Position numbers and translations under genes: made by a program. The notes beneath the pieces are model-generated. The model was not told the DNA's origin. It saw only the letters and a program-made list of their open reading frames with translations, and ran no database searches. Shown in pieces: positions 3,634 through 40,919 of a stretch of DNA of 41,571 bases. The DNA is taken from contig WIXG01000538.1 of assembly GCA_009869945.1 (NCBI GenBank), positions 1 through 41,571 of the forward strand, given 5' to 3'. Position 1 is the first letter of the stretch, and every line of letters starts with the position of its first letter. This DNA comes from Mesaphorura yosii (lineage: Eukaryota; Arthropoda; Collembola; Poduromorpha; Tullbergiidae).

Positions 3634-4872
3634 GACTCTTATTTGAGAACGAACCCTTCTAAATTCAAACGGCCGACGAGCCGACAACGACGACGACGAG
3701 CTTTCAGCTCAGCTGGTTGCTGGAATTCTGGCAACCGTATTTTCCGTATCCAGTTTGCAAGGATTCAACTCCAACCTGGAGCTGGAGCTGGTTTTCTAGT
3801 CAATGTCAATTTAACTCAGAAAATAATGACTAACTGTTCAGTCTTCGTGCTCTTGCAAGCTTCCAGTCTTCCAGTCGCAGCAAAGTCCATTTGTGGTTTT
3901 CTTCGCCGTGTTGTGCTGAATTGTGCTGTGTCTATGATAATTAAGCAATTGGACCCCTGGTACTTAGAAATCAAAATAAAGACCAAGACTTCTGCTCTGT
4001 GCTGCGCTGCACTCGGTAATTGAATACTCCAGCATTCCAGCGCTCAGAAGGCAGACCAAGCAAAGAACTAATCAATCGCTCTTCAATAAAATTGCTGACC
4101 GCAGATTAAGCTCGTGGTTTTTGTTCTGTTCGATTTAATTGGGCATAAATCCGGGCCAGACTAAATACTCGGGCAGCGGAGCGGCGACCACAGCCAAGTC
4201 AACCGAACAGGGAGCCTCTCGTCTGGAATGCGTGCGGCAGCGAGCCTTTCGTCTCTTGTAGTGCTATTGCCAATTTGTTCCTGATTCCTCGCCCTGGAAG
4301 GCTTGGCGACTTGGTTCCTTGTTCCGGGAAGGAAATGTACCCTCTCACTTCAGTATTAATAAGCAAGCCTTCCTTAATGCTCCATGATAATTATAAATTA
4401 GGTAGGTCTTTCTGTTTCCTTAATTCAGGTTGCATGCTGCATTCTGATTCCGATACCAGCTTCACTTCGCTCCATCGCTGCAAGTTCAATGTTTTTTACA
4501 TTTCCTATTTTCTTATCACCTATCACGCGTCACTGTTAAAATGCAAACAAAGCAATCACAAGCTGCCTGTTAAATTCACAACAGGCGCTAATGTCCGTAT
4601 CCTTCTTCGTATGTGCGCTGCTTCTTCCAGTCATCGTTAGAATGAGCATAGTGAATGCTCGCTCGTAGGTTTATCCTTATCGAATTTCCTTATTAAGAAA
4701 TTCGGCGCTGTTCTTAATTCTTCAGTAGCTTAATTTTAATTAAGGTTAAACTGTATCCCTCTTGTGTTTTATCGAATTCGTCGAATTCGTCGAACTTGTG
4801 TGTCGAATTTTAAAGACGTGAGCGTAACCTGTGACTTGTGTCTTTGGTGCGAATCAGCAGGCGAGGGGAGCG
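3634..4872. other. Divergent intergenic/promoter region
   Basis: About 1.2 kb between the minus-strand RING ligase and the plus-strand Tudor gene, so it probably holds both promoters. It is AT-rich towards 4650-4800 with repeated TTAATT/AATT words and a GTCGAATTCGTCGAATT short repeat near 4776. The frames in it do not look like protein. Confidence 0.5.
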
Positions 4873-12597: not shown

Positions 12598-13464
12598 TCA
12601 CGTGACCAAAAGTCCTTGATCAATCGCCAAAGCTGTACCCGTAATCATCTCCGCGAGCGGGCTGGACAAGAAGAGGGCTCCATTCGCGATGTCGGCCGGC
12701 TCCATCGCTCTGTGCTTGAGTAAAGTTCGTGTCTCTGACCGTGTAGCCATTAATTGCATGAAATCCGGTTCGACTTTCGCATCCTCCATGATTCTTGTGG
12801 CCACCGTTCCAGGGCAGATGCAGTTTACACGAATTGGAGGCGTCGTTAACTCTCCGAATTCGAGCGCCATCGACTTCGTCAGCATCGTTACGGCTCCTTT
12901 GCTCGCGCAGTAGACACCCATGCCAAGCGCGGCGCAAGTGTCACTCTAAAAACATAAGAAAACAGTCGCTATAGGTTATATTAAGTAATTGAAGGTTAAT
13001 ATTAGCCAATCTACACTTACAATCGAGCTGATATTCACAATCGTTGCTTCTCCACGCCCTCCGCCTGAGCCGTGCTCGAGAATTCCCTTCACGAACGCCT
13101 GGCTCACATTCAGCATCGCCTTTACGTTGACTCCAATGACTTTATCAAACGACTCTTTCGTCGTCTCGTGCAACGGGCTTACGTCGAGCACTCCAGCGTT
13201 GTTGACGAGGTGGTCCAGTGGAGCCAGCGATTCCACGACGCGACGGGTTTCGGCCCAGTCCAGCAGATCCACGCAGATTGTTGTGATTGAGGGATACTCC
13301 TTCTTCAGGACGGCGAGCAGCTCTGCGTTCCTGTCCAAGACAAACACGCAGGCTCCGTCGGAGTGGAAAGCGATGGCGACTCCACGACCAATGCCCGAGG
13401 CGCCGCCAGTCACGAGAACACGACGCCCGGCGAAAGAATAATGCAGAGAAGGGAATGGAGACAT
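12598..13464 (-). CDS. Short-chain dehydrogenase/reductase, L-xylulose/carbonyl reductase type (copy 1)
   Basis: Exon 1 is 13464-13021 and exon 2 is 12945-12598 (263 residues). This is a classical SDR: cofactor motif TGGASGIG (T19-G26), NNAG structural motif, catalytic Ser in NISSI (about 144-148), and Tyr160/Lys164 in YCASK. The C-terminal part reads IRVNCICPGTV and ALFLSSPLAEMITG. The N-terminal FAGRRVLVTG and VDLLDW stretches most resemble L-xylulose reductase/DCXR-like carbonyl reductases, which reduce dicarbonyls or sugars with NADPH in the cytosol. An Asp (LDRNAE) after the second strand leaves NAD/NADP preference uncertain. It is a tandem paralogue of the gene at 13790-14632, with the intron at the same place (after NISSI). 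Confidence 0.85.
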
Positions 13465-13789
13465 TCTTGGTTCTTAATCGATTGATGGCAGTGGCACCGT
13501 ATCGTCTGAATTTAGATGGCTTTTAAGAGGTGTTGACTTTATTTAAAGGACTGCACAATGTATTAGACTTTCTGGACCCTCTCGAACATAAAACTTCGCA
13601 GATTCTTGTGAATTATGGTTTAGAATTTCAAAAACCGGTTTCCGTTTCGCAGGCACGAGGCAAGGTCTTCTGGTTTCTGGATTCTTATTCAATCCATCAA
13701 GTCAATTGTGTCGGTTGACCCAATAGCTTTATTTTCAAGTCAGATTAAAGATTACGCTCAGATCAAAAAGAAATTTCATGTGCGTTAAA
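13465..13789. other. Intergenic, between tandem dehydrogenases
   Basis: Holds the promoter of copy 1 and the 3' end of copy 2, with a minus-strand AATAAA at 13728-13733 about 60 nt after the copy-2 stop. No gene is seen. Confidence 0.5.
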
Positions 13790-14632
13790 TCAAGTTACAC
13801 GGACGCCGCGGTCCACGACCAGCGCCTCGCCCGTGATCATCTCCGCAAGCGGGCTGGACAAGAAAAGTACAGCGTTCGCGATGTCAGCCGGCTCTATGCA
13901 GCGATACTTGAGAATGGAACGCGTCTTAACCCTTTCCAGGAACTTCTCCATGAATTCGGGGTTTACATCGCCAAGTAGAGCTGTCGGCACGAGTCCTGGA
14001 CAGACACAGTTGACTCGAATGCGCTTGCTGTTGTTGAGCCCGACATACGCGTACTCCAGCGCCATGGATTTTGTCAACATCGTCACGGCGGCCTTGCTCG
14101 CTCCATAAAATCCGCAGCCGGCGACGGCGAGCCGGTCGCCCTGCAGAAAAAAAACATGCTGGAAAAGAGAAAACTGGAGCATTGTGTTTGGACTTACGAT
14201 CGAACTGATATTGACGATTGTCCCTTCGTCCGCCTTCTTGCTGTCGACGATTCCTTTCACGAACGCCTGGCTCACGTTCAGATATCCTTTCACGTTGACT
14301 CCAAACGTCTTGTCAAACTCCTCCGCCGTGGCCTCGTGCAGAGGGCGAGTGATGAGAATGCCCGCATTATTCACGAGGTGATCGAGTGGGGCCAGCGCTT
14401 CGACGGCCCGCTTCGTCTCGTCCCAGTTCAGAAGGTCGACACAAAGCGTGCTGGCCTTCGGCAGCTCCTTCTTCAGCACGGCGAGTAGCTCAGCGTTGCG
14501 ATCCAGGACATAAACGATGGCTCCATCGTCGTAGAATTTCTGCACAATTCCTCGACCGATTCCGGACGCGCCGCCGGTGACGAGCACACGGCGCCCGGCG
14601 AAAGAGTAATGGAGCGAGGCGGAAGAAGCCAT
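13790..14632 (-). CDS. Short-chain dehydrogenase/reductase, L-xylulose/carbonyl reductase type (copy 2)
   Basis: Exon 1 is 14632-14198 and exon 2 is 14140-13790 (261 residues). It has the same architecture as copy 1: TGGASGIG near residue 20, NNAG, NISSI, then Tyr157/Lys161 in FYGASK, IRVNCVCPGLV and ALFLSSPLAEMITG. The 57-nt intron happens to be in frame and open, so an unspliced reading continues through it; the GTAAGT donor, TTCTGCAG acceptor and the matching intron in copy 1 show it is an intron. The start is taken at MASSASLHYSF, aligned with copy 1 (MSPFPSLHYSF). An upstream in-frame ATG region (to 14743) is open but unlike the family. Probably a cytosolic NADPH reductase. Confidence 0.85.
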   Translation of the reverse strand: MASSASLHYSFAGRRVLVTGGASGIGRGIVQKFYDDGAIVYVLDRNAELLAVLKKELPKASTLCVDLLNWDETKRAVEALAPLDHLVNNAGILITRPLHEATAEEFDKTFGVNVKGYLNVSQAFVKGIVDSKKADEGTIVNISSIVSPNTMLQFSLFQHVFFLQGDRLAVAGCGFYGASKAAVTMLTKSMALEYAYVGLNNSKRIRVNCVCPGLVPTALLGDVNPEFMEKFLERVKTRSILKYRCIEPADIANAVLFLSSPLAEMITGEALVVDRGVRVT

Positions 14633-16466
14633 AGAAGACAAGACTGTGAAGTCTGAATAGTGCGATTGAAGACGAGGTGAAACGGCACTCGGCCGATCTG
14701 ATTCAAGCAAATCAAGAAAGCAATGCATTGCACTGGAGCCCAAGCCAGTCTGCTTCGCCGTGACCTTGATGGGCTCTGTCTCTAAATTAATTAATGTAGT
14801 GAGTAGTCTAGTCTTAAAGCTTAATTGTTCATTGCATACCTGAATTAATCAATCCAATGCATTGATGTGTTTACGTGTTGATTTGACATTTTTGTCATTG
14901 GCTTTGTCGTTGGCTTTTGGTTGACCCAAATTGACCAGAAACTCTTTCTGGGCTTGACTGGACTCAGACTTAACGAACTGGAACCGGTTTCAGTTCCCTG
15001 CCCTGCCTGTGCTTCGTCCTCCTTCTCCAGTGACAGTGGCCTGCTTGGCAACCTGCCAGCAAACAAAATATTATTATTGCTATTCCCATAAATAGAAGGT
15101 TGAGGAGTCTGGAAAAGAATGCAGCAATGCCAGTCCAGAGTAAGTCAACCCTTTTGTCCTTTCTTCTCTTCGTGTGGCATGTATTATTGCATTGTTGTGG
15201 ATAACTGAACTGACTGCGGCGTGCCACAACAATGGACAATACGATTAGGATTGTAATCCAACAATGTCTTGTGTGTGAATGTTTAATGTTTTGATACCCC
15301 AAATACAGGTGCTTCGCTGGATTGTAGCGGACACGCACGGGTTGATAAATTACTCGTGGTCGAACACCTTGAAAAACTGATGCTTCAAGTGCCTTAACGC
15401 CTAAAGTGAACTATGCATTATTGCCTTGCACTTTTGCTAATGGCTCGCATAATTTATTACCGAGAGCTGATTGCTGATAACACAGCCACGGCAGCAAATG
15501 AGTGCAAACTGTTAAAACACATTGCGAAAGGTGAAGGCGAAATAACGGTAATTTCAATTACATTAATTAAAAATTGCGTTGCAAATTGCAAATGGCAAAG
15601 ATTGCAGCCTAAGAACTTGGCATGGCCGTTGTCATTAATGTCGAGATAAGGGCGCGCAGTTAATGGCTAATTGAATTTTGAAATTACGTCTTTTCAGGTG
15701 AAGCAAGTAAAGTTGGTACATTTCGCATTTGGCATTGGATCGAAGAATTCTTGGAATTCCAGACTGTAAATAGTAAATTGGTCCCCAGCCACGCCAGAAA
15801 AGCCCGAAACTGATGAGGCAAGGTAACGAGCTGGAATTTCAGCGTCGAGTCACAGGGCCATGGAGTCAAAAGTCAAAAAGTAGATCAATTGGTCTCGGCG
15901 GACGACGCAAGAATTCAGCGCTCAAGGAACCTAAGAGAAGAATCACTGCAGTGTGGACAACAAAAATGACACGAAAATGAAAGTTATCGCACCGTCAACG
16001 GACGAGGGATGAGACAAGAGGATTATTGCTTTGGAATGCTTTTAACAACATGCCAATGTCATAATCGGCTGACAAGACACAAGAAATTATCTCCTCTTGC
16101 GACTTGTCTTGCTGCTCTTTCATTTGCATTGCGGTAACCTTGCCTTTTGACTTTTGCTGCTGCCTTTCTCTGTAATTCGATAATCCGCTCTTAACACTTA
16201 ACACCTACGTGACTCGTGTCGTCTCTCGTTCTTGTTGCTGTTATTAGGTCAGCTAGCGAACGAACGGGACCCTTGCCGGACCTTCACGCGTCGTCAATTC
16301 AAGTCTGCAGTCTCTCACCTGCGATCGATCGAAGAAAACGCATAACAAAATCAACGTCAACACACAGCGAAGTGAAATTTCTCTGCGCCTGCACTATTAT
16401 AGATTTGACCAATTCTGTGACTGGTGATTTGTGACATTTGACATGGTGACTTGACGAAACGAGAAA
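14633..16466. other. Large intergenic region upstream of the ZP gene
   Basis: About 1.8 kb. Short frames include a minus-strand one at 14970-15338 with a hydrophobic run (LLNLLFMGIAIIIFCLLAG) and a plus-strand one at 15413-15649; neither has family features or clear splice partners. The segment just upstream of 16467 should contain the ZP-gene promoter and leader. I see no convincing gene. Confidence 0.45.
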
Positions 16467-21190: not shown

Positions 21191-22378
21191 TCAATTACGA
21201 TATGTCAGCACAATTGACACAATTTTGTCCAAAATGTTGTCCAGCACAGCCAGAGTGCTGCTGGAATTCGGGGCGAAGAAGTTTCCGTGCTTCACGTGAA
21301 TCGGCTGAAGACAGAGGACCCGCATGCTCAGCTCGGGACTTTGTCGACAGCGTTGATGGAGCTCCAGAATCAGTTTCTCGGAGACTGTCGTGACAGTGCG
21401 GTACATTGCGAACATGCAGACGAGGAGGAGCCCTTGTCCCAATGCGTACTCCAGGCACAGGAGCACCGCTCCGTTGTCGAGCTGCATGTGGAACAGAATC
21501 AGAGCCGAGGTTGGTACGACAATCAGCAGGACGGTTGCGAAGAGCTGAAGGGGCAGGAAGGCGGGTCCGAAGCAGCGGTCAAAGACGATTGCAAACACCT
21601 GCAGTTCCTTGTACGCAACGATGACGTTGGACACCTGTCTATTGTCTCGGATTTCCTGTACGAGAAGTGTGCTCCAGTCCATGAGGAGCACCACTGGCCC
21701 CAGTAGTGCTTGGAACATCAGCATGACCGTGAAAGTGTGCGGGACCACGACCAACAGAGTCGCCGAGGTGAAGGCGGCCCGTCCAAGGAATTTGGACAGC
21801 GTCCACTCTTCAAAGCGTGACGGTCCGCCCTCCTCGAAGCAGCTGTACAAGTTGAGAGTGCCGTCTTGCATCATGAGAAGCGCTGCTGTGGCGGGAAAGG
21901 CCCCCAGCACGAACGCCGCGTACGCGGCGCCCAATTCGTAGAATTTGTCCCACGCTGGTTCCTTGTACCGCTGACCAACGTCCGCTTGAGCCGCAATCTC
22001 GATCTGCTGTCGCAGTCTCTTGTTCGTGGCCAGCAGTTTGTTGACCACGTCGCAGAATTCTGTGGCGTACACAAAGTACAGGACTTTGATGGCCATGGCG
22101 AGGTAGAAGGCGCAGAGGACGAGGCTGGTGATGAGGCGCTCCTTCAAGTTGAACCCGGAGCCGTTCGCGCTGCTGCATTGGAGGGAGTAGCCGACGGTGA
22201 TGGCCACTTTGAAGCAGAACTGAAACAAGGTGAAGGCCATAACAAGAAACCTCGCTCTGGGCTTCATCGGGACGAGAGCGCAGTCCGAGTCCGTAATCCA
22301 CCCCAGCGGGATTGCGGAAACCATGACCGCTGCCCTTGTGGTCAGGGTTAATATGGTGATGGTTCTTTCGGTCAACAT
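21191..22378 (-). CDS. Seven-TM chemoreceptor, gustatory-receptor-like
   Basis: A single-exon frame of 395 residues with about seven hydrophobic segments (for example FLVMAFTLFQFCFKVAITVG, LVLCAFYLAMAIKVLYFVY, FVLGAFPATAALLMM, LLVVVPHTFTVMLMFQALL, FATVLLIVVPTSALILF, LLVCMFAMYRTV). The C-terminal part, with PIHVKHGNFFAP, LDNILDKIVSIVLTY and a short tail, fits the insect-type gustatory/odorant receptor superfamily, which forms ligand-gated cation channels with a cytosolic N-terminus. An intronless coding region is seen in lineage-expanded chemoreceptors. A decayed relative lies at 7095-7794. The ligand cannot be predicted. Confidence 0.72.
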   Translation of the reverse strand: MLTERTITILTLTTRAAVMVSAIPLGWITDSDCALVPMKPRARFLVMAFTLFQFCFKVAITVGYSLQCSSANGSGFNLKERLITSLVLCAFYLAMAIKVLYFVYATEFCDVVNKLLATNKRLRQQIEIAAQADVGQRYKEPAWDKFYELGAAYAAFVLGAFPATAALLMMQDGTLNLYSCFEEGGPSRFEEWTLSKFLGRAAFTSATLLVVVPHTFTVMLMFQALLGPVVLLMDWSTLLVQEIRDNRQVSNVIVAYKELQVFAIVFDRCFGPAFLPLQLFATVLLIVVPTSALILFHMQLDNGAVLLCLEYALGQGLLLVCMFAMYRTVTTVSEKLILELHQRCRQSPELSMRVLCLQPIHVKHGNFFAPNSSSTLAVLDNILDKIVSIVLTYRN

Positions 22379-23301
22379 TGTACTAATCTGGCGTCGTGGC
22401 TATCCTGTTCTGGGTGAACTCTACACTGGTCAATGTGTTGATTCCGATTCCGCCTTGGTTCTCCTTTAAATGGATGGCATTTCCGTTTTCCATGACCGGA
22501 ATGCACTTAAGCATGAATTTGAACTAAAAGGAAGAAAAATCATTTGACAATCATTTATTCAGTGCCAATTTAGAAGATTGAATAGTGTACCTAATTCATT
22601 ATTCAGACAATTAACTTTCAGCGAACAACTTGTGATTCAGCGTAATTGCATTTTATATCCGAATTCTCAACTAATTTGATGTCCACTCCACTCGATTGCT
22701 GTGTTTTGGAGAACCAAATAATATGAAAAATTTCGAGATCCTCTGCTATTCCATCAGGAGGCACTGACACACTCTGCAGAGCCCCCTCCTCGTAGAGTAA
22801 CTCGGAAGGTCTCTGGACATGAGACCTGCAGCACGAAACAATTCCATGCCATTCATTCGCATCGCTGTGCATTTGAATTTCATGACTTTCATTTCGATAA
22901 ATCCGCGGAGACGAGGCATCAAGGGATTTCGTGATCTGAGGATTGCACGACGAATTTGATTTCTGTGCGCACGAGGACCTTACGAACCTAACCTAACCTA
23001 AGCAGTATTAACCCCCGTAATTATGCACATGTTAATTAGCCAATTAAATACAGTTAAACCTAAAGGCATGCCATTGACGTCATCCAGTCATGTATTAGAA
23101 TATAGAATAGTTACCACCAAATTTGATATCCATGAATTGCACAGTTGCTATTTTTAAAGAAAAACTTAAATTTATCACTCTTCCAATCGCTTAGCAATAC
23201 GTTTGGGTCACATTTGCAGCACGAGATGTAAGCGGCAATGGCAAGGATGCCCCAAATGTGAGCAGACACTCCAGCCGGACGCCAAACGAGAGAGCACTCA
23301 C
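22379..23301. other. Intergenic, with CCTAA repeats
   Basis: Upstream region of the chemoreceptor. A minus-strand 84-codon frame at 22618-22872 (FHIIWFSKTQQSS) is unrecognised and unsupported. Three CCTAA units lie at 22987-23001. Confidence 0.4.
22987..23001 (-). repeat. Three TTAGG units (telomere-like)
   Basis: CCTAACCTAACCTAA on the plus strand. Second of three such short runs in the window. Confidence 0.8.
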
Positions 23302-31803: not shown

Positions 31804-32552
31804 ATGTCGAAGCCTGTGTACGGATACTGGAACGTTCGTGGGGTAAGTATGCAGTACATCTTATCACTTATCAAAGTCCAATCTGATTTACGACTGCGGG
31901 AAAGCAGCTGGCTGGACCAGCCCGCAATCTGCTCCACTACGCTGGAGTGGAATACGAAGAGAAGGTGTACGAGCTGAGTCCAAAGACGGACTTGTCCAAC
32001 AACGCGTGGACGGCGGAGAAATGCAGTCTTGGACTCGAGTTCCCGAATTTGCCGTACTGGATTGAGCCTGGCCCCGAAGGAGTGAAGCTGACGGAGTCGA
32101 AGGCCATTCTGAAGCATATTGCACGTGCCTATGCTCCTGAGCTGATGCCTAAAGCGGACCAGCTTGCGGAGGTCCGGCAGGCCGACATGCTCGAGAACCT
32201 CGTGGTGGACGTGCAGACGAGACTCATTTACTATGCGTACTATGCGCCCTCGGAGGAGGCTGGAGTCCAGCTGGAGGAAGTCGCTAAGGGGAAGTTTGAG
32301 ACTCTGGCCAAGCATCTGACTATGAATGGCAAAAAGTGGATCACGGGAGCGAGTCTGAGTTATGTGGATTTCCTTCTGTACGACACGCTCTTCTTCTACA
32401 AGGCCTACAAGGCGGCGATGATGGACCCCTTCCCTGTGCTCGTAGGCTACATGGCCGCATTTGAGGCGCTCCCGGCCATTGCCAAGTATATGGCTAGTGG
32501 GGAATGCATTGCTTTGCCGTGCGTCTCGCACGTATTCGCCAAGCCGTTTTAA
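31804..32552 (+). CDS. Mu-class glutathione S-transferase
   Basis: Exon 1 is 31804-31842 (MSKPVYGYWNVRG) and exon 2 is 31908-32552 (227 residues). The N-terminal thioredoxin-like half carries the mu-type Tyr in GYWNVRGLAGPARNLLHY and the glutathione-binding LTESKAILKHIAR (TES in place of the common QSN/QSM). The helical C-terminal half includes ITGASLSYVDFLLYD, the conserved N-capping/hydrophobic staple region of GSTs. Cytosolic; conjugates glutathione to electrophiles. The intron after the first RG dipeptide is common in mu-class genes. AATAAA at 32609-32614 follows. Confidence 0.9.
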
Positions 32553-33278: not shown

Positions 33279-33787
33279 ATGGATTCGCCAGGTCTCACAC
33301 TCTTGGCAATATTTGTAAGTTGGCTTTTCCCATTTCTGTTTTCAATTAATGGTAATAATATATGTCTTTGCATTTGTCACAGCCTGCGTGCTCTCGGTCG
33401 TTTGTTGTGTGATTTGGAAGGAGTGTCTACCCGGAGGTTCACCGCAGGTTCAAGCACTGGATAATGTGCCCAGTTCCCAGGGGCATGGCTACGGCCAACT
33501 CGTGCCAACACCCACGTCGGGCTACGGCGCTCCTCTGGCCGGGACTTGGTATCCATAGCTTTGGTATCCTTCACAACCGCAGCCGCAGCTGATAGTGCTC
33601 GTGGTCCAACCGCCCAACGGCGGCGGAGGGATGGCCCCCAAAGAATCTGCTCCCGCTTCCTCTCCTAATCACAGTACATCACCCCTCGTCCCTGCGACCG
33701 CCACAGTGACGGCTGAGGTCGTCCGCAGACGAGGATGATCCGCCAACGTACCTCGAGTGCTTGTACATGAAAAATACTGGACAATAA
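33279..33787 (+). pseudogene. PPxY mini-membrane protein, copy 1 (broken)
   Basis: Exon 1 is 33279-33314 (MDSPGLTLLAIF, GTAAGT donor). After the CACAG acceptor at 33382 the family-like frame (ACVLSVVCCVIWKEC) is one base out of phase. The frame then meets TAG near 33556, continues as QPQPQLIVLVVQPP, and shifts again before the tail DEDDPPTYLECLYMKNTG. The anchor-linker-PPxY layout is clear, but two frame breaks and a stop make it a pseudogene unless the assembly is faulty. Confidence 0.6.
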
Positions 33788-33955
33788 ATGCGACTAACTT
33801 CAAATTTGCTGAGTTCAATGAAATTCCATATTTTTGTTGTTTGTTTGTGATATTCTGCATTTGGCAAAGCATTAATGACTCAGAGCCATGGGACTGGTGC
33901 GCGTACAAGTGCATGCAACTGCACTCCGAACTTTTCACCAAACTGTAAACAGGAA

Positions 33956-34095
33956 TGACGTACGAAACCAGAGACGCATTTCGCATTTGGCATAAGAGGT
34001 TGAAAGCCTGCCCTACTTTTGCAGCTATTCCATAAAGTGAAAGAACGGAATACACGGTCTATTTTTAGCATTGATCTTTTCACCACCAGTTGCCC
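33956..34095 (+). promoter_or_regulatory. Conserved upstream module of copy 2
   Basis: TGACGTACGAAACCAGA at 33956, then CTATTTTTAGCATTGATC TTTTCACCACCAG at 34059-34090. The same ordered words precede copies at 37231, 38475 and, weakly, 39179. TATTTTTA may act as a TATA-like element; TGACGT is a CRE/ATF-type half site. Confidence 0.5.
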
Positions 34096-34227
34096 TTTAC
34101 CATGACTAATCCCCGTCACGGGTTTTCGTGTTTACCATTTCATTTTCACCACACCGCAGTCGAGCTCATGGTTCAGTTTCTCAACATACTCGGCATTGCT
34201 ACGACGTTTCGACTTTCGCGTGCGCTG

Positions 34228-34696
34228 ATGCCGTGGACAATTTGGTCGATTGTGTGCATTGTGTATTTTGGTCTGATTGTAAGTTACCAAGGTTCGGCGT
34301 GATGGCGAGATTACTTGTTGTTGCTATGGTTGCTAACTTGAATTTGTGCCCGTCCAGATTCTGGCCTTCCTCCTCACAATTGGTTGCTGCCTGTTGCAAG
34401 CCGTCTCGGAGCGTGTTTTCGCGACGCAGTCTTCAGATTACAGGGTGCCACATATCCTCAGGAGGGACACCGGAGATCCACGCTCCTATCAGCTGCTGCG
34501 ATGGAGTTTGAACTCGGGCAGCCCCTGCTCAAGCAACCCCGAGGCATGGGCAGAACACGAGAGGCTAAATTTTGTCGTACTGCCCAACCCGACTCCGTCG
34601 GCGCCCGTGGATCCCGAGCTTGGCGCCCGCGATCCTCCAAAGTACGAGCCTCCGCCCTCGTACATGCAGTCACTGTTTCTCAAGTATTCCCGGTAA
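34228..34696 (+). CDS. PPxY mini-membrane protein, copy 2 (intact)
   Basis: Exon 1 is 34228-34278 (MPWTIWSIVCIVYFGLI) and exon 2 is 34358-34696; 129 residues. Exon 1 plus the start of exon 2 (ILAFLLTIGCCLL) make one long hydrophobic N-terminal anchor with a CC pair. A polar linker of about 75 residues follows (YRVPHILRRDTGDPRSYQLL). The tail DPPKYEPPPSYMQSLFLKYSR has two overlapping PPxY motifs. PPxY is an established ligand of WW domains in Nedd4-type HECT ubiquitin ligases, so the tail is expected in the cytosol. The start is chosen by comparison with the other copies; an upstream in-frame ATG at 34168 would add 20 residues. Paralogue closest to the copy at 38475. Confidence 0.7.
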
Positions 34697-34745
34697 CACA
34701 AACTCACAAAAGTTATGCAGAGCCACTGTGAATTTCCTGGTGCCA

Positions 34746-35100
34746 ATGTCATTGACTGCTTTCAATCTTTACCTCGACTCCGTCGTAAGTTTTTCTCGGT
34801 TAAGCATAAATGCGAAATCTTAATTTAGACCAGAATTTGGTTGCAGTTGGTTACAATCTGCTGCTGCGAACATGTGAAGCTCCTGGTGCAGGACCTCAAG
34901 GAGACCGCCAAAGAGCGGACGTCCATTCCAGCAAAGCGGACTACTCGAGCAGCATCAGCAGAGGAATGGGTTTGTCTCGGTTTGAACCACCGCCGCTGCA
35001 CCATTCAGCCGTGGAGGAGCCCAAGCAGGAGCCTCCGCCTTACGAAGCTCCACCGATGTACCTTCAGTGCAGTGAAAGATTCACCGAAGTTAAATTGTGA
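34746..35100 (+). pseudogene. PPxY mini-membrane protein, copy 3 (frameshifted linker)
   Basis: Exon 1 is 34746-34784 (MSLTAFNLYLDSV) and exon 2 starts at 34847 after TTGCAG, reading LVTICCCEHVKLLVQDLKET in frame. Somewhere between about 34920 and 34980 the family sense moves to another frame (GLSRFEPPPLHHSAVEEP), giving the tail EPPPYEAPPMYLQCSERF and a stop at 35100. Unshifted, the first frame ends in unrelated sequence at 35164 without PPxY. No GT-AG pair bridges the shift. Either a pseudogene or a one-base assembly error. Confidence 0.5.
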
Positions 35101-35127
35101 ACTTACAAACTCGGTTATATATCAGAA

Positions 35128-35133
35128 TTTATT
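35128..35133 (-). terminator. Poly(A) signal, copy 4
   Basis: AATAAA on the minus strand, 44 nt after the stop codon of copy 4. Confidence 0.5.
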
Positions 35134-35176
35134 GCCAAAATTAGTACCTCGCTGTCATTCGTAAAGCTTTCAAACT

Positions 35177-35651
35177 TCAAGAAAAGAGCAAATAAAGCGA
35201 TTCGAGGTAACTCGGCGGCGGCTCGTACGGGGGCGCCAATTCTTCCCTATGGGCTTCCTCCTCTACCGGCGGCTCCTCGGCCTGTCTCGCTTCCTCAGGC
35301 ACGCGAATTGTGATATGGTCCGACGCCACGGAACATGGAGTGTCCCGCCAGCTCTGAAAATTACTGTACGCTCTTGGCTCTTGTTCAGTTAAACTTTCAC
35401 AGCCTCCGCGCCATTGATTTATGGGTCTTCTCGTAAGCGGCTCCTGGACACCGAGGTGACGGACCTTGTCGATCCATCTCAAAATCCGGATCATGAGCAG
35501 TATGCAGGCAAGCAGCAACATCTGTTCAAGGAATGGAAACCAGTGCAACGCAAGAAACACTTCTTTTTAAGCTGTGTAATTGTCTTACTAGAAATCCGAG
35601 AAGTATGACAAAATACTGGGAAAGCTGGCGATTCCACTCCCCACGGTCCAT
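35177..35651 (-). CDS. PPxY mini-membrane protein, copy 4 (intact, minus strand)
   Basis: Exon 1 is 35651-35589 (MDRGEWNRQLSQYFVILLGFL) and exon 2 is 35521-35177; 135 residues. The anchor spans the splice site (YFVILLGFL then MLLLACILLMIRIL). The linker is arginine- then glutamate-rich, and the tail LAPPYEPPPSYLESLYLLFS carries two overlapping PPxY motifs plus YLLF, which also fits a Yxx-hydrophobic sorting signal. The intron is in the same phase-0 position as in plus-strand copies. A minus-strand AATAAA follows at 35133-35128. The copy at 39777-40145 has a nearly identical end. Confidence 0.72.
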
Positions 35652-36085
35652 CCACCACGGATGTTATTTGTAAACCTGAATCAGCACCAGGAGACGAAGA
35701 TATCAATACTGAAGACAGATATCGACTATACTATATGAATCAGCTACCGGTTAGGTGGGTGTGCTTTTCTCCGAGTAAAAACGTAAACAGTAAACGAGTC
35801 GCAACGTAGTCAGTTCGCGTCACATGTGAAGCTCTTGCGGCTCTGGCTCTGAGTCAGGAAACCCAACTTGAAAACACGGTCGAGACAAAAATACAACTCG
35901 TGTGGCAATACGTGGGCGGTGACGAGTTTTTCTTGGTATTGCTTATTCAGCTGCTGCTGCTCAATGTCGTGTGCTCTTTGCTTTCTCTATGACGTCCATG
36001 GCAAGCCGGTGAAAGGGGTCCTGATGCCGAAGCCGGGGCTCATTTAGGCTGAAAATCTTGCCACATTCTAAATTTCTCGGTACCA
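35652..36085. other. Spacer between divergent array members
   Basis: Divergent spacer carrying the promoter of copy 4 and relics of the duplicated unit (CTCTGGCTCTGAGTCAGG resembles words at 37910 and 40490). No gene is seen. Confidence 0.4.
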
Positions 36086-36562
36086 ATGCCGTCAACTTCT
36101 AGCGAGTTTGATCTCACCATCATCATAAGTCTTCGCATTACATTACCCCAGCGCTATTGTTTAAACCGAAATCTTAATTTTGCCAGAATTCGATTGCAGT
36201 TTGTCTATTGCTTGGTCTCGTGCTGCTGTGGATGTCTGTGGTCGCCCTTCAAGACCTTTTTGAGTTTTTGAGAGCCCCGAGGGGCTCAATTCGCCGACGC
36301 CCGCCACAGAGCGACAGTTCACTAGAGCGGCAGTTCGGGTTATCCGTTTCAGGGATCAGCACCTGGTCCGCTCGGAATCGTCACTTGATTCTCTAAGCTC
36401 ACTCTAGCCAAACCAGCCGTCGGATTTTATCATCGTGATCATCAAGCCGTCGTCTGCTCCAGCCATGGCCTAACCCCTCCCTAGATCAGTCTGAAACTCT
36501 TCGAATCCGAACTTCCACCCTAGAAAGCTCCTCCAACGTACCTGCAATAATTGTACCTCTCG
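36086..36562 (+). pseudogene. PPxY mini-membrane protein, copy 5 (heavily decayed)
   Basis: A start-like ATG at 36086 has no GTAAGT donor downstream (ATCATAAGTC where others have GTAAGT). Exon 2 follows GATTGCAG at 36199 (LLLGLVLLWMSVVALQDLF, then SSLERQFGLS, comparable to SPERQFTQT in the copy at 39179). Later fragments give SDFIIVIIKPSSAP and the degraded tail ESELPP-stop-KAPPTYLQ-stop-LYLS near 36508-36562. Multiple stops: a clear pseudogene that still aligns along its length. Confidence 0.65.
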
Positions 36563-36600
36563 TTCGGAAGATAATCCAAAGTTTGGTATTGATTCTTTAA

Positions 36601-36867
36601 ATGATTAAATTAAATACTCTTGAAAATGCACTACAGGCTTGTGGTTGCATTCCTGACGCGGAGGAGCCACCTGAGCAACGGCACGGCCACGTCCCAGTCA
36701 TTTCAAGGCCTCAGTCACAGGCGCAGCCGCAGCCTGGACCATCGCCCTCGGCCGCCGATACTATCGCAACGAAGCCACCGCGACCGACCTACGACCCTCC
36801 GCCGACTTATTTCGAGTCACTTTACCTCAAATTAATAATAACAGATAATAAACAAGTCAATTATTAA
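36601..36867 (+). CDS. PPxY protein, copy 6 (short form, anchor not found)
   Basis: An open frame of 88 residues with a possible acceptor (CACTACAG) at about 36637. It reads CGCIPDAEEPPEQRHGHVPV, a Pro/Gln linker and the tail KPPRPTYDPPPTYFESLYLK, followed by IITDNKQVNY. The linker and double-PPxY tail are intact, but no hydrophobic exon precedes it at normal distance. It may be a truncated copy, or exon 2 of a gene whose first exon lies within or beyond copy 5. Confidence 0.4.
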   Translation: MIKLNTLENALQACGCIPDAEEPPEQRHGHVPVISRPQSQAQPQPGPSPSAADTIATKPPRPTYDPPPTYFESLYLKLIITDNKQVNY

Positions 36868-37011
36868 ATGTTGAGCACGGCAATAGGCAATCATTGAAGT
36901 TCCCCGTCATTGGTCACGCACCGTTGTCTTCTCTTTACGAGAACAATGGCCACGGATAACAGGAAACGGCAAGGGATGAGTCATTGAATTCCCCAGCCAT
37001 TGGTAGGCATA
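36868..37011. repeat. Downstream block shared with 38130-38260
   Basis: After the copy-6 stop, TCATTGAAGTTCC, GTCATTGGTCACG and TTTACGAGAACAATGG recur after the remnant tail at 38070-38129 (GTCATTGGTAATTG, TTTACGAGAAG, AACAATGGG). This marks a duplicated unit boundary. Confidence 0.5.
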
Positions 37012-37104
37012 TGACGTGCAAAAATAGTAGATGCACTCGTACAAATACGTGGGAAGAGAGCTATTTTTATATTTTTAGCATTTAGTCTTTTCACCACCAG
37101 CGGC
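37012..37104 (+). promoter_or_regulatory. Conserved upstream module of copy 7
   Basis: TGACGTGCAAAAATAG, then AATACGTGGGA, CTATTTTTATATTTTTAGCA and TTTAGTCTTTTCACCACCAG in the same order as upstream of copies 2 and 9. Confidence 0.5.
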
Positions 37105-37230
37105 ACGATGACTCGAAGACCATTGCCATTGCTACTTTCGCTCTGACGCCCATCGCATCGGCGCTCAGCTCGTGGTGAAAGTAGTACCAAGCTTATTTTC
37201 ATCGCAACTCTCTCCAAAGTGACAACCCCA

Positions 37231-37728
37231 ATGCCGCCTGCCGATAGCCTTGCCTGTTTTGTAAGTTTTTTTTTAAACATTACAGTGTCCCAAATCGAAA
37301 TTTTAATTCTTTCCGTCGCATCGTTCGGATTTCAGTTTGGCTGCTGCTTGCTCTCCTGCTTCTGTCGTATTCTGGAACACATCATGAGCGTCAAGGACGA
37401 GAGAACCGAGGAGCCGACCGCCTCCCCACGGCGGGAGCCATTCAGGGGCGGATATGCTGCCTGGCTTCCGCCAGATCAGGGAACGCCGCCGCTAATCAGT
37501 TCCAGATCGTCGTGGTCGTGGTCATACCCGTACCACGATTCTACAGATTCACTTCATTACGAGCAGCAGACCGAGTTTGTCGTCGTCGAGCCGCCGTTCC
37601 CCCTCAGAAGCCCCCAGCACAGCCCCCTCGCGGGGCCCCCCATTGTAGTTCCGGAGCCCGTTCCACCGGAATCCGACCTGCCGCCTTACGAAGCCCCTCC
37701 GTCGTACCACCAGTCGCTGTACCGGTGA
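37231..37728 (+). CDS. PPxY mini-membrane protein, copy 7 (intact)
   Basis: Exon 1 is 37231-37260 (MPPADSLACF) and exon 2 is 37336-37728; 140 residues. The anchor is short and Cys-rich (CFFGCCLLSCFCRILEHI), suitable for palmitoylation. The linker contains EFVVVEPPFPLRSP, shared with copies 5 and 10. The tail is LPPYEAPPSYHQSLYR, with two PPxY motifs. The 75-nt intron is in frame and stop-free; its translation is hydrophobic (VSFFLNITVSQIEILILSVA), so intron retention would lengthen the anchor by 25 residues. Expected topology: N-terminal membrane anchor, cytosolic tail binding WW domains. No signal peptide. Confidence 0.7.
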   Translation: MPPADSLACFVSFFLNITVSQIEILILSVASFGFQFGCCLLSCFCRILEHIMSVKDERTEEPTASPRREPFRGGYAAWLPPDQGTPPLISSRSSWSWSYPYHDSTDSLHYEQQTEFVVVEPPFPLRSPQHSPLAGPPIVVPEPVPPESDLPPYEAPPSYHQSLYR

Positions 37729-38069
37729 AATTTCACATTCCATTTCTGTTTCTGTAGGACTGATCCGGGTGTTGACCCAAAATCGCCGAGAAGATCGATA
37801 CTAATCGCACATGCAGAATATCACGTTACAGTTCGCTTTCTCTGAACTCTCCGAATCATGAAATCGTAAAAGGTTTCGTACATCCTCTTGAAATCTGTAA
37901 GTGCAATGTAAAGGTCGAGAGCTCTGGTGTGTGACTCTGAGTCATGAAACGTGTTTGTGTTTTTTTCCTGAGTTTTGATGCTGTTGCCGTGTGCTGTTTC
38001 GCCAAGAATTCTCTTGAATAAATCAAGGCCAAGTCGAACTGGGGGGGCACCCAGTACGAAAACCTGCAC
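37729..38069. other. Spacer duplicated upstream of copy 11
   Basis: GGGTGTTGACCCAAAATCGC with GAGAAGATCGATACTAA and TTCTCTTGAATAAATCAAGG resemble 40316-40350 and 40530-40550. No gene; duplicated non-coding sequence. Confidence 0.4.
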
Positions 38070-38129
38070 TGGACTTATTTCGAGTCACTGTGCCTTAAAT
38101 TTTTATTGAATCAACAGAAAAATTATTGA
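38070..38129 (+). pseudogene. Remnant PPxY tail (copy 8)
   Basis: Reads WTYFESLCLKFLLNQQKNY then TGA, matching the end of copy 6 (TYFESLYLK ... NKQVNY). The PP before TY and the rest of the gene are missing. Confidence 0.55.
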
Positions 38130-38295
38130 TGCTAAACAGTAAGAAATAATTGAAAGCCAGAGCTTGTGCGTCATTGGTAATTGTTTACGAGAAGACAAGC
38201 CAGGGCTTCAATAACAATGGGTCAGACAAGCAACTGGTCATTGAAATCCTCTGCAGCTGCATAGGAAAACGTGCAGACGGTTCCTAACAAGCAAA

Positions 38296-38387
38296 TGACG
38301 TACAAAACTAGATGCATGTATACGAATACGTGAGAACCGGACTATTTTTGACCAACCAGACATTTGATCTGTTCACCACCAGTTGCA
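38296..38387 (+). promoter_or_regulatory. Conserved upstream module of copy 9
   Basis: TGACGTACAAAACTAGATGC, GAATACGTGAGA, CTATTTTTG and ATTTGATCTGTTCACCACCAG in the same order and similar spacing as at 33956 and 37012. Confidence 0.5.
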
Positions 38388-38474
38388 CCATCTGCTTGTA
38401 CTTTCACTTTGGCCTCGACTGCAATTGGATCAGTTTCTAAACACCTCTGCAACTACAATCACTGCACCCGGGCC

Positions 38475-38940
38475 ATGTCATTCGCGTGGCTGTTGGCTGT
38501 GTGCCTTGGACTGATGGTAAGTGGTCACTCCGCAACAACATTTGGTAACAGTTACCAAGACCAGTAAAACCGAATTCTAAATGTGTGCTCCTAGCTTCTC
38601 GCCTTATTGCTGACAATTTGCTGCTGGATTCTCCAAGCCTACCAGGAGCGTGTACGCCTCAACAAGCAGAGAATGGCCTACCGGGATCCACAAATCCTGA
38701 GGAGGGTCGACGGGGATTCACGCACATATAAGCTGCTGCGATGGGGCCTCAACTTTGGAACGTGCAACCCAGGCCGCTCAGGTGCGAACTGTCGCGACAT
38801 TTCGCCGTGCTGTCCATTCTGCCGCTGCCACAGCGACAGCAGTCGGCTCCAGGGGATCCTGAGCTTGACGGCTCCGACCCTCCAAAGTATGAGCCTCCGC
38901 CAAGCTATATCCGATCACTGTTTCTTGAGTCTTACCAATA
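38475..38940 (+). pseudogene. PPxY mini-membrane protein, copy 9 (frameshifted linker)
   Basis: Exon 1 is 38475-38516 (MSFAWLLAVCLGLM) and exon 2 starts at 38595 (LLALLLTICCWILQAYQERV), close to copy 2 (same QILRR/HILRR, TYKLLRWGLN/SYQLLRWSLN). After GLNFG the copy-2-like sense continues in another frame (SAPGDPELDGSDPPKYEPPP SYIRSLFLESYQ, stop at 38940). The first frame instead runs into Cys-rich sequence (CCPFCRCHSD) and ends at 39017. No usable splice pair bridges the change. A recent frameshift or an assembly indel. Confidence 0.55.
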
Positions 38941-38978
38941 ACCCCAAGTTGTACTGCAAAATGAGGAGCGTGTGCGAG

Positions 38979-39021
38979 AATACGTGGGGAGAGACGAGCA
39001 GGTGTTTTTGGTGGTGATCTT
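38979..39021 (+). promoter_or_regulatory. Degenerate upstream module of copy 10
   Basis: AATACGTGGGGAGAG and GTTTTTGGTGGTGATCTTTC are weaker matches to the modules at 33956, 37012 and 38296; TGACGT is not preserved. Confidence 0.35.
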
Positions 39022-39178
39022 TCTGACAACATAAACAGAAGTTTTCGCCAATGCTTGTCAGTCCTCAGCCGTGTTTTTGTTTACTTTCACTCTGACGTCC
39101 TTCGATTCACACCGCTCGGCGGTGGAAGTCATGAATCTCATTTACACTGTAAAACTCGCTCAAGTCGCACCATCCCGA

Positions 39179-39720
39179 ATGGCGTCTGACAATAGCGAGA
39201 TTTACCTTGGTCTAATTGTAAGTTTTTACAATCCACGTGTCCGGCTCCGGTCGTGTAATTTGAAATTTTAATTTTTCCATCATTTGGATTCCAGTTTGTG
39301 TGCTGCATGTTCTCCTGGTGCTGTCGATTTCTGAACCGCCTCTTGAAATACCTGGAGGAGACCACCAGGGGGCGCGCGCCCTACCCCATGCCGACGCCGT
39401 CCCCAGAGCGACAATTCACTCAAACTGTGCAGCGAATCACCGGTGGTGGAAATCAGGGCAGCGGACTGCGCATGCAGCGGCCAACGCACTCGAGGTAATG
39501 CCATGATTTTCGAGTTTCGCACCAGCAACATCGATCCCACTTCGTCGTCGTGAGCATCGAGCCGTCGTCCCCACAGGAACCCCTGGCGGCGCTGCAACCC
39601 GTGGCCGTGGCGCAGTCCTCAGATGCTCCGGAGCCTACCGAATCCGACCATCACCCGCCGCCTTACGAAGTCCCTCCGTCGTACGAACAGTCACTGTACT
39701 TGGCTTTCGGAAGACAATAG
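39179..39720 (+). pseudogene. PPxY mini-membrane protein, copy 10 (one in-frame stop)
   Basis: Exon 1 is 39179-39217 (MASDNSEIYLGLI) and exon 2 starts at 39295 (FVCCMFSWCCRFLNRLLKYL), a Cys-rich anchor. The frame stops at TAA (39496-39498) after HSR. The same frame then continues with no other break through HFVVVSIEPSSPQEPLA and the tail HPPPYEVPPSYEQSLYLAFG to a final TAG at 39720. The continuation aligns with copy 7 at HDS/HDF, FVVV and PPYExPPSY, so the TAA replaces one residue near the aligned Tyr. Nonsense mutation or stop readthrough. A GTAATG...CCCACAG splice would remove the TAA but break the frame. Confidence 0.6.
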
Positions 39721-39737
39721 ACTAAATAAGGGAAATT

Positions 39738-39743
39738 TTTATT
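39738..39743 (-). terminator. Poly(A) signal, copy 11
   Basis: AATAAA on the minus strand, 34 nt after the copy-11 stop. Confidence 0.5.
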
Positions 39744-39776
39744 GTCATTCGGTTTCTCGCATTGACCGCCACATTT

Positions 39777-40275
39777 TCAAGAAAAGAGTAAGTACAACGA
39801 TTCAATGTAACTTGGCGGCGCCTCGTACGCGGGTGCCCGCTCCTCCGCTACTTGAGCGACCTCGATTGCGACGTGTGCCTGTGGCAACCGCCCCTCACTC
39901 GTGCTGTTCCCATTTGGAAGCTCACTTCGCACGTTGCTCGGTTCTGGCTGTGCCGAACCGTTCGGAAATTCCAAAGGAGTGTAAGCGGAGCTCTGCTGCT
40001 CATGGTTCACAAAATTTTCATAGTCTCTGCCGCGTCCGCGTGGACGCCACCGATTTCGGTTTCTCGTAAGCGGCCCCTGACCGCGGCCGTACATTTTGTT
40101 GACCCACCACGAAATCAATGTCATTACGATGGCAAACAGCAAAATCTGAAAGATTTTCACAATAATTATTAATGCAGGTGTCTCGAATTTAGGATTCTTA
40201 CCCCAAATGAACACGACTACGCCAAAGTACTGCCGATTTCATTGTCGATTCCAGCGATGTATCCACTGGTCCACT
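39777..40275 (-). pseudogene. PPxY mini-membrane protein, copy 11 (5' end disrupted)
   Basis: Exon 2 (40145-39777) is fully open: ILLFAIVMTLISWWVNKM, an Arg/Gly linker and the tail APAYEAPPSYIESLYLLFS, nearly the end of copy 4. In exon 1 the aligned frame reads WNRQ-stop-NRQYFGVVVFIW (copy 4: WNRQLSQYFVILLGFL). A TGA replaces the expected residue, and the donor phase is off by one base. The 56-nt intron, if retained, keeps this frame open. Translation could still start at an internal Met. The first PPxY is degraded to PAYE, the second (PPSY) is intact. Confidence 0.5.
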
Positions 40276-40300
40276 TCACAATTTAGATTTTCTGTACAGG

Positions 40301-40307
40301 TTTTATA
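40301..40307 (-). promoter_or_regulatory. TATA box upstream of copy 11
   Basis: TATAAAA on the minus strand, a good core-promoter candidate. The promoter looks preserved although the coding start is damaged. Confidence 0.5.
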
Positions 40308-40563
40308 GAGCTGGTCGGGGTTTTGACCCGAATTCGCACTCGAGGAGATCAATATTGCAAACAGACAGAGATTCAGTCACGAGATGTATATGCTTTCTTT
40401 TCTCCGACCGAGCGAGTCGAAAAGTCATCGGCCGTTCGAGTTTCGTATGCCACTCGTGCGAATTTGTAAGTGCAGATCTCGTGCATCTCGTTGGCTCTGA
40501 GTCTGAGCCCGAGCCTGCAGCCCCCGAACATTTCTTTTGAATAAACCATAGCCAAACTTACAA

Positions 40564-40569
40564 TTTATT
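40564..40569 (-). terminator. Poly(A) signal, copy 12
   Basis: AATAAA on the minus strand, 17 nt after the copy-12 stop. Confidence 0.45.
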
Positions 40570-40585
40570 TCAGTTTGTGTTTGTG

Positions 40586-40919
40586 TCAGGCGTACAACAG
40601 ATAAAGCGGTTCGAAATAAGATGGTGGTTCCTCATACATCGGGAGCTGCTCCTCCGGGGCGGGGGCGCTGGCCTCGATTGGCGGCACCTCTAAGTGTCAC
40701 CCTCACCTGATCACGTGCCCTCGAAATCGCATCAATGTCAGCAAAACTGGGAGCACTTGCAGACGGTGTCGTCAGAGTAGGAGCACGCAGTACAAAAATC
40801 GGAACTGGCGCACCTCCTGTTGGGTACATGTACATTATGTACAGAGATAGAATGCAACTCGGTGGCCGGTGGAGGCAGCCAATGTTAGTTCTGGAAAACC
40901 GGCTCGTGCCGACCCCCAT
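40586..40919 (-). pseudogene. PPxY mini-membrane protein, copy 12 (frameshifted, partial)
   Basis: The last part on the minus strand reads EVPPIEASAPAPEEQLPMYE then EPPSYFEPLYLLYA and stops at 40586. Just upstream, across a one-base shift near 40690, the sense is in a neighbouring frame (SFADIDAISRARDQVRVTL), comparable to SDHITIRV in copy 4. The anchor is weak (LSLYIMYMYP) and no first exon is identified. One intact PPxY (PPSY) remains. Confidence 0.5.

Follow-up and report, generated by a model that had tools for sequence, protein, structure and literature searches.

A multicopy family of small, predicted membrane proteins with a closely spaced double PY tail in the springtail Mesaphorura yosii

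We analysed a stretch of 41,571 nucleotides from the springtail Mesaphorura yosii, referred to here as the window (bases 1-41571 of contig WIXG01000538.1, our C538, in assembly GCA_009869945.1, which comprises 93.0 Mb in 1127 contigs). Between positions 33279 and 40654, on both strands, lie 12 copies or remnants of a family of very small genes, in agreement with a preliminary description, made from the sequence letters, of about a dozen such copies. The predicted products combine a short N-terminus, one hydrophobic segment, a linker and a tail with two closely spaced Pro-Tyr (PY) motifs. The tail probably binds WW domains, and the best reading of the family is that it acts like the Commissureless or Ndfip adaptors of ubiquitin ligases.

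The array and its relatives in the genome

The strict tail pattern [PLA]P.YE.PP[ST]Y has seven matches in the array and none in the remaining window. Shuffling the mononucleotides of the array 200 times never produced it, and a chance origin of the tails was rejected. Gene modelling left three of the 12 copies intact (2, 4 and 7, those already singled out in the preliminary description; Table 1), while the other nine carry stops, frame changes, a lost anchor or a degenerate exon 1, or consist of the tail alone. Genome searches that used three proteins and three tail peptides as queries, and whose counts are lower bounds, recovered at least 17 further copies on five other contigs. The total thus comes to at least 29 copies and remnants (12 in the window, four on C734, five on C482, two of them broken, two on C785, three on C725 and three on C85); one additional match on C641 is weak and unverified (E 0.07). 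The array is therefore real as described, but it is not the whole family. Two parts of the window, 36632-37945 and 38367-39138, share 82% and 85% DNA identity with C734 and represent either a duplicated block or a divergent haplotype.

Thirteen intact two-exon models encode proteins of 112-159 residues (w2, w4 and w7 in the window; a1, b1, b2, b3, c1, c2, d2, e1, e2 and e3 elsewhere). Copies w3, w9 and w10 were also modelled and are broken; a2, on C734, may be intact and was left uncounted. In each model exon 1 and the start codon are predicted, and the starts of b1 and e1 were picked among several. All 13 introns are phase-0, 41-79 nucleotides long, and have a GTAAG or GTGAG donor and an AG acceptor. 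The short first exon, phase-0 GTAAG donor and anchor-bearing exon of the preliminary description thus hold for the modelled copies; its first-exon length of 10-21 residues applies if copy 2 uses its second ATG, but otherwise the 13 models span 10-37 codons. An AATAAA hexamer, whose background frequency is 0.26 per 400 nucleotides per strand, follows the stop codon within 12-53 nucleotides in eight models (w4, b1, b2, b3, c1, c2, d2 and e3) and at 218-307 nucleotides in w7, e1 and e2; none was found within 400 nucleotides in w2 and a1.

Every model has one strong hydrophobic segment near its N-terminus, preceded by 4-27 residues. Kyte-Doolittle windows of 19 residues (KD-19) among the first 60 positions, a coarse test, give it values of 1.71-3.23. 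C-terminal of the segment, no window exceeds 0.81 except in e3, where the best scores 1.29.

Several short elements recur upstream of the genes. ATACGTG is present in six of 20 upstream regions (w5, w7, w9, w10, a1 and b3), [AG]ACGTGGGA precedes b2 and e2, and TATTTTT, TCACCACC and TACTTTC[AG]CT occur upstream of some copies; the regions of w1, w5, a3 and d1 have only approximate starts. Some elements of the block upstream of copy 7 are also found upstream of copies 2, 9 and 10. These shared elements suggest common regulation of the copies.

Table 1. Family copies, the upstream block of copy 7 and neighbouring reading frames in the window
Feature	Position	Strand	Description
Copy 1	33279-33787	+	Remnant; exon 1 33279-33314, exon 2 with in-frame stop; tail half PPTYLECLY in different frame
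Copy 2	34168-34696	+	Intact model, 149 residues; exon 1 34168-34278 (second ATG 34228), intron 79 nt, exon 2 34358-34696; tail PPKYEPPPSYMQSLF; AATAAA absent from the 400 nt past stop
Copy 3	34746-35100	+	Broken; anchor and tail (PPPYEAPPMY) out of frame
Copy 4	35177-35651	-	Intact model, 135 residues; exon 1 35589-35651, intron 67 nt, exon 2 35177-35521; tail APPYEPPPSYLESLY; AATAAA 43 nt past stop; public relative P0002
Copy 5	36086-36574	+	Broken by stops and frame changes
Copy 6	36637-36867	+	Only linker and tail RPTYDPPPTYFESLY; anchor not found
Block upstream of copy 7	37012-37142	+	TGACGT, ATACGTG, TATTTTT, TCACCACC, TACTTTCGCT
Copy 7	37231-37728	+	Intact model, 140 residues; Cys-rich anchor; exon 1 37231-37260, intron 75 nt, exon 2 37336-37728; tail LPPYEAPPSYHQSLY
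Copy 8	38070-38102	+	Tail remnant WTYFESLCLKF
Copy 9	38475-38941	+	Broken; anchor and tail PPKYEPPPSYIRSLF out of frame
Copy 10	39179-39720	+	Interrupted by in-frame stop; tail PPPYEVPPSYEQSLY
Copy 11	39777-40145	-	Exon 2 open, tail APAYEAPPSYIESLY; exon 1 degenerate
Copy 12	40592-40654	-	Tail remnant LPMYEEPPSYFEPLY
Reading frame adjoining array	31887-32552	+	Glutathione S-transferase (PF14497, PF02798)
Reading frames	1962-3708	-	Presumably a membrane E3 ligase with protease-associated and RING domains, by resemblance
Adjacent reading frames	12976-13473 and 13790-14848	- and -	71% DNA identity over 436 nt; both presumably short-chain dehydrogenase-like
Hydrophobic reading frame	21191-22399	-	402 residues; presumably resembling an arthropod chemoreceptor

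Conservation of the tail

Twelve of the 13 intact models end in a near-C-terminal [PLA]PxYExPP[ST]Y, with the two PY motifs exactly two residues apart, a gap that is also present in all three public relatives described below. The consensus PPxYExPP(S/T)Y proposed earlier captures this overall layout, but the first motif frequently reads LPxY or APxY. In 12 intact tails, no change affects the second Pro, both Tyr, the Glu, the second PP or the Ser, while their codons vary. Across 12 chosen intact tails, b2 omitted, the pooled proportion of synonymous differences (pS) is 0.71 and that of nonsynonymous differences (pN) 0.19, the pairs not being independent; a second set of 12 tails that includes b2 gives pS 0.73 and pN 0.29. 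Remnants 1, 5 and 8 and both broken C482 copies lie outside both counts.

We also compared the ratio of nonsynonymous to synonymous change (dN/dS, omega) of the tail with that of the sequence before it in eight pairs. It is clearly lower in the tail for c1/c2 (0.05 against 0.50), w4/w11 (0.15 against 0.65), d2/b1 (0.05 against 0.48) and e3/b1 (0, with synonymous sites saturated, against 0.46). Selection on the tail, as proposed in the preliminary description, is thus supported by these pairs, the pooled counts and the public relatives, but the other four pairs, given below, do not share the pattern. C-terminal endocytic signals of the YxxPhi or acidic dileucine type, judged by eye, are not common to all copies, and no role is proposed for them.

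Protein searches covering 5.8 billion sequences yielded three relatives, all from short contigs of the European Nucleotide Archive: P0001 (near d2), P0002 (near w4) and P0003 (near c1). Compared with their partners, they show 5 differences in 128 positions, 9 in 114 and 14 in 110, respectively. None of the 60 positions in the last 20 residues differs, compared with 28 of 292 in the remainder (Fisher P 0.007). Query b3 found no homologue among the same sequences, and PDB sequences gave no match at E up to 1. In Pfam, one of five array reading frames had two weak matches (best E 0.058), and five families each matched one of 12 members (best E 0.012); we took all of these as noise. Three pattern matches in viral contigs, from one scan with one peptide pattern, included no relative by tblastn, nor was any relative found among 24 pattern matches in prokaryotic genome contigs; viral and prokaryotic origins were accordingly set aside. 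The family is likely to be lineage-restricted, as had been proposed, the evidence being the three protein searches, which returned only these three close relatives.

Taken together, the phase-0 introns, the nearby AATAAA hexamers, a tail that stays fixed over saturated synonymous change and the unchanged tails of the relatives make the genes look real.

Linker motif and lysine scarcity

The linker, previously described as variable and Pro-rich, contains a recurring hydrophobic motif of the approximate form hhVxIxPP (for example FVVVTIEPP, HILVTIEPP and HITIRVPEE), which starts 10-43 residues before the tail. The motif sampler assigns one site to each of the 13 models by construction. In ten of these sites position 4 is aliphatic and position 6 is I, V or M, and eight of the ten also carry a Pro at positions 7-9, while w2, w7 and a1 match only the first half. 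The information content of the motif is 12.81-13.10 bits in four runs, a value that none of 60 shuffled sets reached under equal sampler settings (mean 11.73, standard deviation 0.30, maximum 12.46). Removal of the near-duplicates a1 and c2 gave 13.26 bits, compared with 12.00 for shuffled sets (standard deviation 0.31, maximum 12.72).

Lysine is scarce in the same part of the proteins. More than 15 residues past the hydrophobic segment, the 1173 residues of the 13 models include six Lys and 84 Arg; nine of the models lack Lys there altogether. By comparison, nine long, uncurated reading frames of the window, 3604 residues in all, contain 140 Lys and 232 Arg (Fisher P 9e-10 against the family). 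Shuffling the DNA of the family stretches gives an expected Lys share of 0.17, under which six or fewer of 90 has P 0.0035. Lysine deserts are described as common among disordered proteins of the ubiquitin system (PMC10169902). The linker motif, the lysine-poor linker and tail, and the two-residue PY gap are new in this analysis.

Candidate partners with WW domains

On each of C62, C940 and C9, HECT and WW domain matches share a strand and follow one another in order, so at least three genes that combine WW and HECT domains are likely to be present in the genome. Judged from the WW letters, some of which were read, we take the C940 gene to resemble Smurf and the C9 gene to resemble Nedd4, and a WW domain on C47 is presumably Yorkie-like. 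Two WW pairs were considered as tandems of the KIBRA or MAGI kind and rejected on reading: the pair on C3 appears PRPF40-like and that on C292 TCERG1-like. No KIBRA or MAGI gene was identified among the WW loci read, these two inspected pairs included. At C308:81618-82000 two close WW-query matches, one above the WW cut-off, lie on a contig with no HECT match listed; this pair marks a candidate WW-tandem gene.

The spacing of the PY motifs bears on the choice of partner. KIBRA and MAGI2/3 are reported to bind very tightly to ligands of the form PhiPhixYxxPsiPxY, whose PY motifs are separated by exactly two residues (PMC6744271), and this consensus is fitted by 12 of the 13 intact tails and by all three public relatives. 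The gap would therefore suit the WW tandems of KIBRA and MAGI at least as well as Nedd4. PY motifs of LATS1, AMOT and PTPN14 have also been reported to bind NEDD-family ligases (cited in PMC6744271), so the two kinds of partner would be compatible.

Interpretation

We propose that the family consists of one-pass membrane adaptors that evolve by birth and death and are probably lineage-restricted. The short N-terminus would lie outside the cell or in the lumen, and the long part after the hydrophobic segment would be disordered and cytosolic. The tail would capture WW domains, most likely those of the Nedd4-family HECT ligases of the genome, while the variable anchor and linker might choose the membrane clients to which the ligase is brought, with the action of Commissureless on Robo1 as a precedent for such delivery. 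Having few lysines, the adaptor could bind a ligase without being tagged itself. The proposal draws on the 13 intact models of one plan, their hydrophobic segments, the constraint on the tail, the HECT and WW loci, the scarcity of lysine and the precedents of Commissureless and NDFIP2. That the tail binds WW domains seems to us highly probable; the Nedd4-adaptor mechanism as a whole we rate at slightly below an even chance. The ligase-adaptor interpretation of the preliminary description is favoured by genes that look real, by selection acting on the tail in several comparisons, by the hydrophobic anchor and by the WW and HECT matches, but its partner is divided between Nedd4-type and WW-tandem proteins. 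ESCRT-dependent budding (endosomal sorting complexes required for transport), which that description had also considered, gained nothing from any result of the analysis.

Several observations weigh against an adaptor of this kind. The charges flanking the hydrophobic segment leave the topology unsettled, and the segment could be a cleaved signal peptide; for both reasons the membrane anchor and cytosolic tail are predictions. Neither canonical PY motif survives in model b2. In half of the eight pairs, omega is not clearly lower in the tail: w7/a1 has 1.34 over its whole length and 1.24 before the tail, with three nonsynonymous and no synonymous changes in the tail; w6/a2 has 1.40 overall, 0.83 before the tail and 9.33 in it; and tail and preceding values are 0.42 and 0.25 for b3/w7, and 0.61 and 0.62 for d2/d3. 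Base composition accounts for part of the lysine scarcity, and the effect is modest. The PY motifs of Commissureless are five residues apart, compared with two here. Finally, other aligned type I WW tandems, ITCH among them, are described as binding PTPN14 PY12 or LATS1 PY23 very weakly or undetectably (PMC6744271), both being ligands with closely spaced PY motifs.

Another possibility is that the proteins are membrane-anchored high-affinity ligands of a WW-tandem scaffold of the KIBRA, MAGI or Yorkie type. The tail would clamp both WW domains at once and position a protein of growth control or polarity at the membrane, or sequester it. The match of nearly all tails to the tight-binding consensus (PMC6744271) speaks for such a scaffold, as does a gap length that stays constant among the fitting tails while other positions vary. 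The presumably Yorkie-like WW domain on C47 and the further WW matches would supply partners, but no KIBRA or MAGI gene was identified among the WW loci read, the C3 and C292 pairs being presumably of other kinds. The small PY membrane proteins found in the literature, moreover, act on Nedd4-type ligases, although Nedd4 was itself one of the words searched for. We consider the scaffold explanation somewhat unlikely.

Alternatively, the proteins might be decoys or antagonists that occupy WW domains and block or destroy a ligase, as CYYR1 does with WWP1 and herpesvirus PY proteins with Itch, their rapid turnover reflecting conflict or dosage competition. The birth and death of copies, with 13 intact among at least 29, would fit, and both precedents are reported to lower their ligases (PMC11399591, PMC5849660). 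In the pair w7/a1, the upstream regions, which are 88.3% identical over 326 nucleotides, do not differ more than the nonsynonymous sites do (52.2 of 298), so the coding part has changed no more slowly than its flank. However, diversifying selection cannot be demonstrated from a single recent pair, and the linker motif suggests a second binding partner that a pure decoy would not need; we regard decoys as quite improbable. That the set is mostly the decay of duplicates of one old PY membrane gene, with no present function, appears very improbable: nine of 12 window copies are broken and omega exceeds 1 over the whole length of w7/a1 and w6/a2, but tail residues stay fixed at synonymous saturation over 12 intact copies, the three public relatives have unchanged tails, and AATAAA lies shortly past the stop in eight of 13 models. 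A more far-reaching idea, which we hold to be distinctly unlikely, is that these tiny membrane proteins present the tightest class of WW-tandem ligand so far described, the double PY with a two-residue gap, on a lysine-poor flexible arm, together with a second docking motif. They might then be interchangeable membrane addresses or competitors that place WW-tandem growth regulators and Nedd4-type ligases, with anchors and linkers turning over under conflict.

Comparison with known systems

A close functional parallel to the proposed membrane adaptors is Commissureless of Drosophila. It, too, is a short membrane protein, although much longer than the present ones, and its two PY motifs lie in the cytosol, a placement that is predicted here. 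It also differs from this family, which is multicopy and carries its tail near the extreme C-terminus. Its PPCY (220-223) and LPSY (229-232) are required to raise Robo1 ubiquitination, and the second is followed by an xEAL-type extension (LPSYDEAL, partly from a primer; PMC12101832), which resembles the xxSL of the present tails. Up to E 5, none of 12 members, a1 not included, matched the Commissureless family PF15957, whose three matches in the genome were all below the cut-off (best 17.2 against 27 bits).

Ndfip proteins cross the membrane three times and carry a NEDD4_Bsd2 domain; the present proteins have one strong KD-19 segment each, and none of 12 members matched that domain (PF10176). 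One match in the genome was below the cut-off (19.5 against 24.7 bits). In these genome profile searches for Commissureless and Ndfip, exon-split genes can escape, and 14 control genomes had no positive control. Ndfip1, Ndfip2, TMEM127 and SUSD6 are nonetheless comparable as membrane proteins that recruit and, alone or paired, disinhibit Nedd4-family ligases through PY motifs, of which NDFIP2 requires several (PMC12720080).

The two PY motifs of PTPN14, Dendrin, AMOT, JCAD and USP6NL are likewise exactly two residues apart (PMC6744271). The intact models here are predicted one-pass proteins from tandemly arrayed genes, and tiny. Those five, in contrast, are large soluble or cytoskeletal proteins.

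CYYR1 shares cysteines, one membrane span (predicted here) and C-terminal PPxY motifs with the family. A signal peptide and a Cys-rich domain precede its span, as in the wider Shisa group, whereas the present proteins have one strong hydrophobic segment only. With that single KD-19 segment and no convincing Pfam match, they depart from the layout of Shisa-like, CYYR1 and WBP1 proteins. CYYR1 lowers WWP1 through its PPxY motifs and acts at late endosomes (PMC11399591). The herpesvirus proteins UL56, ORF0, UL42 and U24 are PY membrane proteins that bind and lower Itch and, unlike the present family, are viral (PMC5849660).

Small PY membrane proteins are thus already known from unrelated groups, among them Commissureless, Ndfip-type adaptors, CYYR1 and herpesvirus proteins. 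A full-text literature search, which covered few subscription papers, gave no published description of a double-PY family such as this, in line with the earlier remark that no described family was known to have the exact layout. With 13 intact variants in one genome, their tails nearly fixed and their linkers free, the family offers a comparative set for what a WW-ligand adaptor requires, and the constant two-residue gap makes the question of its partner testable with short peptides. If the predicted topology holds, the family would be a variant of the small PY membrane adaptors, and it is best read as acting like Commissureless or the Ndfips while matching the profile of neither.

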